Below are positions 3,208 to 5,130 of a DNA stretch of 64,000 bases, one piece after another (the stretch's first letter is position 1; every line of letters begins with the position of its first letter). The DNA is from Spirulina subsalsa FACHB-351 (lineage in GTDB: Bacteria > Cyanobacteriota > Cyanobacteriia > Cyanobacteriales > Spirulinaceae): positions 1 through 64,000 of the forward strand of contig NZ_JAIHOM010000006.1 in the NCBI RefSeq assembly GCF_026130165.1, in the 5' to 3' direction. Under the pieces are notes generated by a model. The model was not told the DNA's origin and made no database searches. It worked only from the letters and a program-made list of their open reading frames with translations. The translations under genes and the position numbers were made by a program.

Positions 3208-3504
3208 ATGAAAGGTTCTATTTCTGCCACCCAGATCAAATTCCCGATTTTGTCCGAACCATTACGCCTCGGTAGCGAAGGACGCTTTGTGAAGGTTTTG
3301 CAACTGCAACTGGAGTCTCAAGGCTTTTTTTTAGGTCGTGTTGATGGTGTTTTCGGTAGAAATACCCTCGCTGCCGTCCGTGCCTTTCAAGCTGAGTTTG
3401 GGTTATCTATCGATGGTGTGGTAGGAGCAGCCACTTGGCGCAATTTGGGAGGAGAATACTATGGTCGGGAGAAGGTTGTATTCCCCATGAGTATTTTCTC
3501 TTAA
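3208..3504 (+). CDS. Small peptidoglycan-binding domain protein
   Basis: A 98-residue protein that is almost entirely one PG_binding_1 domain (residues ~18-76): LRLGSEGRFVKVLQLQLESQGFF, VDGVFGRNTLAAVRAFQAEFGLSIDGVVGAATW. The motif G-x-F-G-x-x-T-x-x-A-V-x-x-F-Q is intact. No signal peptide or catalytic domain is visible. Such stand-alone domains are common in cyanobacteria; the biological role is unknown. It lies alone, divergent from the cbiMN riboswitch. Confidence 0.85.
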   Translation: MKGSISATQIKFPILSEPLRLGSEGRFVKVLQLQLESQGFFLGRVDGVFGRNTLAAVRAFQAEFGLSIDGVVGAATWRNLGGEYYGREKVVFPMSIFS

Positions 3505-3606
3505 ATTAGCTCTCCGTCGGATCAGAATCCAGTTGGGCTTGACTTTGATCTCCCTGTCTGCTAAGGTTATTTTGCCAGTGGGGAACAAAGTTTCCTCAAA
3601 GGCAGT

Positions 3607-3724
3607 CTAGGGTTAAGTATCTAGAGTAAAGTTTCTAGAATCAACAACATCTAGAATGAACAACCTCTAGAGTTAACAAACTAGCAAGTTTCCATTCAAC
3701 TTATAGAAATCACCAGTTTCCTAG
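3607..3724. repeat. Cluster of phased CTAG motifs
   Basis: CTAG occurs at 3607, 3621, 3635, 3651, 3667, 3681 and 3721, mostly spaced 14-16 bp. The surrounding sequence (tctagaatgaacaac and variants) looks like a degenerate 14-16 bp tandem repeat. It lies upstream of the aroF leader region; its role is unknown. Confidence 0.5.
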
Positions 3725-3768
3725 ATGAATTTCCCCGGCACCAGCTACTTTTATTTTTGGTTTAGACA

Positions 3769-3858
3769 GGTTCACCGAGGGTGAGTCCCGTTTAGGCTAG
3801 GGAAAGCAAAAGGGAAAACTCGGTGAACCGCAAGCACTTTAAAGGGCCTGCGGTTTTT
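3769..3858 (+). ncRNA. Candidate structured small RNA or upper aroF leader, with terminator-like 3' end
   Basis: A perfect 11-bp stem (GGTTCACCGAG at 3769-3779 with CTCGGTGAACC at 3819-3829) encloses a 39-nt loop. It is followed immediately by a second hairpin, CCGCAAGC...GGCCTGCGG, and TTTTT at 3854-3858, the form of an intrinsic terminator. The two stems share two bases at 3828-3829. I do not recognise the RNA as 6S, Yfr1 or SRP RNA. It may be a free-standing sRNA or part of a longer aroF leader. Confidence 0.45.
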
Positions 3859-3948
3859 GGTGTTTTAGGGGGTTCTACCCAAACACTAGACTCCATCGAT
3901 TAGATTTCTCTCTCTTTTCTCGTTCACCCGTTTATCGCGGAGATACCC

Positions 3949-4008
3949 ATGATCATTCCTTCTCCTGTTTGGTTTTTTGGTTTTTATTTTACTTGGCCTA
4001 CTGGATAG
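3949..4008 (+). CDS. Aromatic-rich attenuator leader peptide of aroF
   Basis: A 19-codon ORF, MIIPSPVWFFGFYFTWPTG, starts at ATG 3949 with a GGAG ribosome binding site at 3939-3942 and ends with TAG at 4006-4008. Seven of 19 residues are aromatic (two Trp, four Phe, one Tyr), clustered at codons 8-16. The stop codon directly abuts the first arm of an antiterminator hairpin. This is the arrangement of amino-acid attenuator leaders such as trpL and pheL. It is inferred to sense charged tRNA-Trp, tRNA-Phe and tRNA-Tyr for the DAHP synthase downstream. Confidence 0.8.
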   Translation: MIIPSPVWFFGFYFTWPTG

Positions 4009-4069
4009 TCCGAGCTTAGATCCTGTTGTATCTCCCTCTTGCTCGGACAGTGATTCCGAGCTTTTTTTT
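4008..4069 (+). promoter_or_regulatory. Transcription attenuator: antiterminator/terminator switch for aroF
   Basis: Three arms are visible: A, TCCGAGC at 4009-4015; B, GCTCGGA at 4041-4047; C, TCCGAGC at 4055-4061, followed by eight T (4062-4069). B:C gives a 7-bp terminator stem with a 7-nt loop and U-tract. A:B gives an alternative 8-bp stem (GTCCGAGC/GCTCGGAC, 4008-4048), with extra AGAT/ATCT pairing inside its loop. A ribosome at the leader stop codon would mask A and allow termination; one stalled earlier on Trp/Phe/Tyr codons would leave A free to block the terminator. Confidence 0.8.
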
Positions 4070-4104
4070 CGTCCATTATTCATGCTTTAAGGAAGGTTCA
4101 CACC

Positions 4105-4959
4105 ATGTCTCATTCTCAACTGATTGCCAAAAAACACGACCAAGATATGACCTTAGTCTCCCTGTCTTCAGAGGTGATTTTCGGGGGGGAAGAAGTGGTG
4201 ATTATTGGCGGGCCTTGTTCGGTGGAAAGTCAGGAACAAATGGATACCGTTGCCGAAAAACTCAGCGCCGCTCCCGTCCAAGCGTTACGGGGGGGCGTTT
4301 ATAAGCCCCGCACGCTGCCTTACTCCTTCCAAGGGTTAGGTCAAGCGGGATTGGAGATTTTAGCGCGAGTGCGTAGGGAGCATCAGATTCCGGTGGTTAC
4401 GGAGGTGATGGCGATCGCACAAATTGAAGAACTCGCCGCCGTTGCCGATCTGCTGCAAGTTGGGAGTCGTAATATGCAGAACTTCGACCTCCTCAAAGCC
4501 CTAGGCCAGGCCGGAAAACCCATCTTACTCAAGCGAGGGTTAGCCGCTACGATTGAGGAATTCCTAGGGGCAGCAGAGTATATTGTCAGTCATGGCAACC
4601 CCCAAGTGGTGTTATGTGAACGAGGAATCCGTAGTTTCGACAACTTCACCCGCAATGTCTTGGATCTTGGGGCCGTGGTTGCCCTGAAACAACTCACCCA
4701 TTTACCCGTAATTGTAGATCCCTCCCACGCCGTTGGGAAGCGGGAATTAGTCGCTCCCTTGGCCAAAGCGGCGATCGCCTGTGGAGCCGATGGGTTAATC
4801 ATCGAGTGCCACCCGGAACCCGAGCAATCTATTTCTGATGCTCGCCAAGCCCTATCCTTAGAAGATATGGTCGCCCTCGTCCACAGTTTACAACCTGTTG
4901 CTGCTGCCATTGGTCGCTCCGTGAGAACTACTCCGGAGCGACAATTATTAGCGGCTTAG
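4105..4959 (+). CDS. aroF: 3-deoxy-7-phosphoheptulonate (DAHP) synthase
   Basis: Catalyses PEP + erythrose 4-phosphate to DAHP, the first step of the shikimate pathway to Phe, Tyr and Trp. The 284-residue protein is the KDO8PS-like class I-beta type. It shows GGPCSVES (35-41), LRGGVYKPRTLPYSFQGLG, ILLKRGLAATIEEF, CERGIRSF, VDPSHAVGKRELV and the metal-binding IIECHPEP. It has only a short N-terminal tail and lacks the ACT-like, ferredoxin-like or chorismate-mutase regulatory domain found in many relatives. AAGGAAGG (4089-4096) precedes the ATG. The missing allosteric domain makes the upstream attenuator the likely main control. Confidence 0.95.
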   Translation: MSHSQLIAKKHDQDMTLVSLSSEVIFGGEEVVIIGGPCSVESQEQMDTVAEKLSAAPVQALRGGVYKPRTLPYSFQGLGQAGLEILARVRREHQIPVVTEVMAIAQIEELAAVADLLQVGSRNMQNFDLLKALGQAGKPILLKRGLAATIEEFLGAAEYIVSHGNPQVVLCERGIRSFDNFTRNVLDLGAVVALKQLTHLPVIVDPSHAVGKRELVAPLAKAAIACGADGLIIECHPEPEQSISDARQALSLEDMVALVHSLQPVAAAIGRSVRTTPERQLLAA

Positions 4960-4975: not shown

Positions 4976-5130
4976 CGGGGGGGAACAGGGAACAGGGAAT
5001 AGGGAATTGATAATTGATAATTGATAATTGATAATTGATAATTGATAATTGTTCCCCCTCTCCCCCTCTCCCCTGCTCCCCTGCTCCCCTGCTCCCCTGC
5101 TCCCCTGCTCCCCTGCTCCCCCGCGAAGAG
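4976..5130. repeat. STRR block (gataatt heptamers and cccctgct octamers)
   Basis: The sequence between aroF and cruA is built of gggaaca/gggaata units, about six consecutive gataatt heptamers, and about six cccctgct octamers. This is pure short tandem repeat DNA between two convergent genes, with no ORF of interest. Confidence 0.9.

Follow-up and report, generated by a model that had tools for sequence, protein, structure and literature searches.

Ribosome-mediated attenuation of transcription is textbook knowledge in E. coli, where the trpL and pheL leaders form alternative antiterminator and terminator structures. Their leader peptides are rich in cognate codons and stalling of the ribosome leads to read-through, as outlined in the available part of PMC11802643. 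The same part describes AroR of Corynebacterium glutamicum, an aromatic leader peptide with Phe and Tyr codons upstream of the DAHP synthase gene aroF; transcription of aroF is increased under Phe limitation (PMC11802643, citing Neshat 2014), yet Tyr availability is described there as being without effect. A motif called uORFC-13-1, proposed to be a uORF attenuator, is found only upstream of aroF, with 24 representatives in Acholeplasma and environmental sequences (sections available of PMC8632094). Two tandem short ORFs, mgtM and mgtP, each lying within an attenuator, are reported for the leader of the Salmonella virulence operon mgtCBR, and the last codons of mgtP form one of the arms (PMC3641672, in excerpt).

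Upstream of a cyanobacterial aroF gene we found an arrangement that resembles trpL and pheL in its leader peptides rich in cognate codons, in its alternative antiterminator and terminator, and in the predicted outcome of stalling. It differs from these in having two complete units in series with three aromatic amino acids per leader, and unlike in E. coli the target is a common-pathway enzyme and the host a cyanobacterium. AroR shares the aromatic leader peptide and the DAHP synthase gene, but is a single leader with Phe-Tyr-Phe in an actinobacterium; this comparison was made by description. The uORFC-13-1 motif likewise precedes aroF, but has one uORF in which the U run encodes at least one Phe, and the excerpt of its source mentions no tandem copy. 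As in mgtCBR, two ORFs are present, each with its own alternative arms, and the last codons of leader 1 form an arm. In contrast to mgtCBR, where the signals are different (ATP and proline), both cyanobacterial leaders carry the same codon class and the target is biosynthetic.

For cyanobacteria, no amino acid attenuator was found among the open-access PMC matches listed, which is weak evidence of absence. A survey from 2016 speaks of no reliable data on attenuation in cyanobacteria (PMC4833913, in part), a table from 2005 contains predicted attenuators before tyrA operons (PMC1173090, in part) and the available sections of PMC4448311, PMC8750797 and PMC7997468 make no mention of such a leader. 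The initial annotation knew of no ribosome-mediated aromatic attenuator described for cyanobacterial aroF, which apparently holds; for a DAHP synthase attenuator as such, AroR and uORFC-13-1 are precedents. With mgtCBR as a third precedent the type of attenuation is known, and what is apparently new is the tandem all-aromatic form in cyanobacteria.

The window, i.e. the whole stretch of 64,000 nucleotides from Spirulina subsalsa FACHB-351 that was analysed, contains the aromatic leader noticed originally at 3949–4069 (element 2). Its 19-codon ORF with ribosome binding site, seven aromatic residues and a stop codon abutting arm A was found exactly as annotated, and so were the three mutually complementary arms with eight T after the last one. 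The element is real, but it is only one unit of a tandem and not the single attenuator it had been taken for: another ORF for an aromatic leader peptide, likewise followed by three arms with mutually exclusive pairings and by a T-run, had been missed. This whole unit (element 1) is located upstream at 3725–3858. The pairings of B1 with A1 and with C1 exclude each other over 3825–3829. In terminator 1 of the window the U-tract is imperfect and interrupted (TTTTTGGTGTTTT). Judging from the sequence, we consider it very likely that two tandem ribosome-mediated transcription attenuators sensing charged tRNA-Trp, -Phe and -Tyr control aroF.

Table. Features of the tandem leader region and aroF in the window.
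Feature	Position	Strand	Remarks
Leader peptide 1 ORF, MNFPGTSYFYFWFRQVHRG and stop, 7/19 aromatic	3725..3784	+	no Shine-Dalgarno seen
Arm A1, GGTTCACCGAG, within last codons of leader 1	3769..3779	+	pairs with 3819–3829; covariation
Arm B1, CTCGGTGAACCGCA	3819..3832	+	3819–3829 pairs with A1, 3825–3832 with C1
Arm C1, TGCGGTTT (3849–3856), and T-run 3854–3858, terminator 1	3849..3858	+	fold, alignment pairing
Shine-Dalgarno GGAG of leader 2	3939..3942	+	6 nt 5' of ATG
Leader peptide 2 ORF, MIIPSPVWFFGFYFTWPTG and stop, 7/19 residues aromatic	3949..4008	+	read in window
Arm A2, TCCGAGC	4009..4015	+	starts directly 3' of leader 2 TAG
Arm B2, GCTCGGA	4041..4047	+	complementary to A2 and C2
Arm C2, TCCGAGC, and eight T, terminator 2	4055..4069	+	C2 4055–4061, T 4062–4069
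aroF, DAHP synthase, 284 aa, catalytic domain only	4105..4959	+	PF00793 263 bits, TIGR01361 356 bits

In the proposed mechanism RNA polymerase would transcribe leader 1 with a ribosome behind it. If charged tRNA-Phe, -Tyr or -Trp is scarce, the ribosome would stall in the aromatic run and leave A1 free, A1:B1 would form and terminator 1 would fail. With adequate charging the ribosome would reach the stop codon and cover A1, and B1:C1 would end transcription. Transcripts past terminator 1 would then reach leader 2 and undergo the same test with its own arms. AroF would be made mainly when charging of the aromatic tRNAs drops, and two gates in series, whose effects may multiply, would sharpen the response.

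Folding of the individual segments gave -28.2 kcal/mol (z -5.2) for A1:B1 (3768–3829) and -14.1 kcal/mol (z -2.1) for terminator 1 (3825–3856); in element 2 the values were -11.6 kcal/mol (z -3.1) for A:B and -11.4 kcal/mol (z -3.9) for B:C. Folds of the whole region were unremarkable (z -1.45 and -0.38), as is expected when structures compete. A generic terminator scan of 3500–4600 returned 2 matches compared to 1.6 in shuffles. A strict rule, composed after the element had been seen, required a short ORF rich in aromatic codons together with A/B/C arms and a T-run. It matched three times on both strands of the 64 kb (element 2 twice due to an overlapping frame, and element 1) and twice in total in 10 Markov resamples of the window. 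Taken by itself the window makes a case that is suggestive only; conservation decides.

Relatives were drawn from 59 related genomes and 80 contigs of named genomes, with a few species present in both sets. Including the window there were 100 aroF-orthologue loci, 96 of them with at least 448 nt upstream; 11 loci with a paralogous or more distant DAHP synthase (L002, L022–L031) were left out of the counts, as were L048, L066, L084 and L090, which are too close to a contig end. Leader 1 is present in 94 of the 96 loci, leader 2 in 95 and both in 93. Only element 1 is found in L013 and only element 2 in L017 and L018; by genome, the one-module relatives are G003 (element 1) and G034, G054 and G182 (element 2), and they offer natural controls. 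Models R1 and R2, both with the window locus among their training set, match the window at 3728–3864 (E 7.5e-14) and 3952–4067 (E 1.3e-11), respectively. Loss of the ORF or the arms in relatives had been named as a sign against the attenuator; both are kept, with covariation, across diverse cyanobacteria.

In relatives leader 1 typically reads M-x-x-x-N-S-Y-F-Y-F-W-F-R-V-V-H-R-E and leader 2 M-T-Y-F-S-S-W-F-Y-G-F-Y-F-W-P-R-A-S-S-G. Phe, Tyr and Trp codons occur in both, which points to one shared signal class. The aromatic cores show mostly silent changes (TAT/TAC, some TTT/TTC) with a pN/pS of 0.032 for leader 1 and 0.099 for leader 2, values that are biased downwards because the cores were chosen by amino acid pattern (85/94 and 90/95 loci). 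Non-majority bases at codon positions 1/2/3 amounted to 0/1/26 of 425 in the core of leader 1 and to 14/19/80 of 630 in that of leader 2. The first core position of leader 2 is W in 83, Y in 6 and F in 2 of 93 loci. This interchange bears on an arrest of the TnaC type, in which a free aromatic amino acid would stall the ribosome on the completed peptide; TnaC is a Trp-sensing leader (PMC8429421, in part). Leader 2 of most relatives does carry FWPR before its conserved end, but reading of codons tolerates an exchange of Trp, Tyr and Phe, whereas a specific arrest should not. Moreover, since stalling would lead to antitermination here, an excess of aromatic amino acids would raise AroF under such an arrest, against biosynthetic logic, and we regard this explanation as very improbable.

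An SD-like motif lies 3–22 nt upstream of leader 2 in 72 of 95 loci and of leader 1 in 0 of 94; cyanobacteria often start translation without SD. The stop codon abutting arm A, part of the original description of element 2, is true of the window but not of most relatives, in which A overlaps the last codons and the stop; length and stop position of leader 2 in the window are unlike those of most relatives. Leader 1 of L014 stops early, 5' of arm A, and that of L051 one codon early, while L038 and L050 have no clear U-tract 2 by the rule used. The common form of the arms of element 2 is TCCGGG/CCCGGA/TCCGGG. The window and its congener have TCCGAGC/GCTCGGA/TCCGAGC instead, with the same position altered in each of the three arms and complementarity preserved. 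In many Nostoc-type loci a ATAGCGTCATG-like stretch is well kept just 3' of the leader 2 stop, in the region that separates arm A from arm B; it is not present in the window.

The arm A1 end of leader 1 is under the opposite constraint to the core, the RNA being preserved while the amino acids vary. The codon preceding GTT occurs in 12 forms, among them GTG, GCG, CAG and AAG, and its third base is G in 89 of 94 loci. CAC/CGC (His/Arg) varies jointly with its partner in arm B. We determined covariation in two alignments: A1 with 50 sequences, obtained from 94 by removing near-duplicates (similarity ratio >0.94), and A2 with 51, obtained from 93 with end found via 52 by removing L088 by hand because its start had been placed too far upstream. 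A mutually exclusive antiterminator and intrinsic terminator are present in both elements. Antiterminator 1 including its inner hairpin has 89.3% of cells paired (A:B helix alone 94.5%, inner hairpin 79.7%) and 38 two-sided changes compared to 10.6 in shuffles and 8–18 when slid. Terminator 1 is paired in 98.5% of cells (50 sequences) with 4 two-sided changes compared to 0.2 in shuffles, and terminator 2 in 96.3% with 17 compared to 6.2. For antiterminator 2 98.5% of cells are paired, and its covariation is thin, as the 2 two-sided changes (0.1 in shuffles) are fewer than the 5 in the helix slid by one column; the number of pair types in this helix was not above shuffles. The share of paired cells in all four helices far exceeds that of slid versions, pairing is also above shuffles in each of them, and compensatory changes are strongest in element 1.

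Since shuffles take no account of relatedness, we additionally mapped the changes onto a tree of AroF proteins built from 58 loci by a quick method. One A1:B1 pair switched between A-U and G-C at least five times. With G-U steps counted, three neighbouring A1:B1 pairs require 3, 5 and 4 changes, and the outer pair of terminator 2 requires 13. These data also bear on the question whether a single module does the attenuating and the other one, with element 1 as the likeliest candidate, is a constitutive partial terminator or a relic. The existence of single-module loci, the interrupted U-tract 1 of the window and the missing SD of leader 1 would be compatible with such a division. Element 1, however, surpasses element 2 in antiterminator covariation, has the lower pN/pS of the two and occurs in 94 of 96 loci, indicating that selection maintains it as a switch, and we therefore consider a single active module unlikely.

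The effect of a ribosome on the pairing of both elements was assessed in silico. When whole elements with a masked ribosome were folded to equilibrium (8 loci), element 2 switched cleanly in three cases, the window, its congener and L052; otherwise the result was mixed, with the antiterminator cleanly favored only in some. We therefore changed to folds ending before arm C, in which the mask extended 12 nt beyond the first nucleotide of the A-site codon and folding continued until just before that arm. A distance of 12 nt from the A-site codon is nearer to toeprint geometry than 15 nt. L051 was not caught by the arm finder in these runs. With the 12-nt mask A:B was likely (P>0.5) at 537 of 608 aromatic codons in leader 1 and at 782 of 790 in leader 2, and at the stop codon its probability fell below 0.5 in 93 of 93 loci for each leader.

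Averaged over 93 loci, the chance of A:B in leader 2 stayed at 1.00 up to and including the codon after the last conserved Trp (-7), then fell to 0.59 at -5 and to 0.08 at the stop codon; in the window, too, leader 2 switched within two codons after the last Trp. In leader 1 the mean over 93 loci was 0.97 up to -9 and 0.80 at Trp (-8). It dropped to 0.26 at the last aromatic codon (-7), for which coverage is predicted, and to 0.03 at the stop codon. A ribosome at the stop codon hence blocks the antiterminator in these folds and one at a control codon does not, with the exception of codon -7 of leader 1. A 15-nt mask moved the switch one codon further upstream. In the model a clean switch requires folds that end before arm C, i.e. 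co-transcriptional folding. A:B also forms without any ribosome (mean P 0.94 in element 1 and 0.92 in element 2), so that an untranslated leader is predicted to read through. The E. coli trp leader differs in this respect, as it is not read through when untranslated.

A search of 386 genomes from the phylum gave aroF matches with an E of 1e-95 or lower in 39. Of these, 38 belong to the window's class or nearer and are 69–100% identical over the aligned part; the remaining one lies outside this class and is 57% identical. R1 and R2 each match 37 of the 38 genomes and both match in 36, element 1 being absent from G182 and element 2 from G003. According to the listed coordinates element 2 ends at most 185 nt from the aroF match in 36 of 37 cases. 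In G415 (contig 1, 3950374–3957513) a distance of about 6.3 kb separates the leaders from an aroF piece listed without its first 70 residues; the gap is perhaps an insertion inside aroF. Throughout the 386 genomes elements were found only beside aroF with one exception, G083, in which element 1 precedes a decayed aroF (L135 1255–1620, minus strand) and the two seem to decay together. The absence elsewhere is not proof, since the stricter filters of large genome searches lose weak matches. The linkage to this one gene spans ten cyanobacterial family codes.

Upstream of trpE (16 loci, one with 3 nt and one with 253 nt upstream) and pheA (15 loci) from 15 related genomes no aromatic leaders were detected by a search rule that recovers the leaders of aroF at all 8 control loci. 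The DNA pattern for YFYFW matched 118 times in 59 genomes; 38 matches were inspected, two of which are aroF leaders. The other inspected matches were rejected as chance, judged by eye alone and without comparing arms.

Alternatively, the ORFs could encode functional small peptides, each followed by an ordinary intrinsic terminator, with the A arms being accidental. Strongly conserved peptide cores and a terminator-like hairpin 3' of each ORF agree with this, but the C-terminal codons of leader 1 are kept as RNA and not as protein, A1 covaries with B1, and no elements away from aroF were found in the 386 genomes; there is thus very little room for this explanation. Control by a riboswitch or T-box without translation would account for a long structured 5' region with terminators, but offers no explanation for the conservation at the coding level. 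No Rfam family reached the gathering score in the window at 3725–4105 or at the elements of ten loci, the best match below threshold having an E of 0.12, which makes this type of control hardly credible.

Two other RNA families were encountered during these searches. A HEARO RNA (RF02033, 138 bits) is located at L109 801–1033 on the minus strand, upstream of the attenuators in Microseira wollei. In the window a cobalamin riboswitch (Rfam RF00174, 58.9 bits) occupies 2743–2886 on the minus strand, upstream of a minus-strand ORF at 1965–2723, which we take by its motif to resemble a CbiM-type cobalt transporter.

Of the 94 loci with leader 1, 90 have a promoter-like pattern TTGAM...TAnnnT upstream of it, while a control region shows the pattern in 2 of 92 and shuffles give a mean of 2.5; it is absent at this position in the window, its congener, L008 and L106. 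Both leaders are therefore probably part of the aroF 5' UTR in most relatives, and the promoter-like sites suggest that both units are carried by one transcript.

The ribosome binding region of aroF at 4090–4104 (AGGAAGGTTCACACC) includes GGTTCAC, which repeats a portion of arm A1 and with which B1 could in principle pair. This motif is found near the aroF start in 2 of 95 loci, the window and its congener only. Immediately 3' of aroF, at 5010–5130, the window contains runs of ATTGATA and CTCCCCTG repeats.

AroF of the window had been described as a DAHP synthase without an allosteric domain, and domain searches agree: it gave no match to PF18152 up to E 1, and this ferredoxin-like domain is carried by a second DAHP synthase of 352 aa in the same genome. 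In related DAHP synthases PF18152 provides allosteric control. The comparison with the paralogue supports control of AroF at the level of expression in place of allostery, and attenuation would account for the control of a DAHP synthase that has no regulatory domain.

We lean slightly towards a more far-reaching view, in which ribosome-mediated attenuation operates in cyanobacteria and the charging of aromatic tRNAs is judged by each of two ribosomes following one another on a single nascent transcript, resulting in a multiplicative, near-digital gate for aroF while the domain-bearing isozyme covers basal flux. If this is true, transcription and translation would be closely coupled in these cyanobacterial cells. 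The tandem attenuator would fill a gap in what is known on attenuation in cyanobacteria and would provide a natural test of such coupling. It would also be a practical target for the production of aromatic compounds, as the terminators, besides feedback on the enzyme, would limit aroF.
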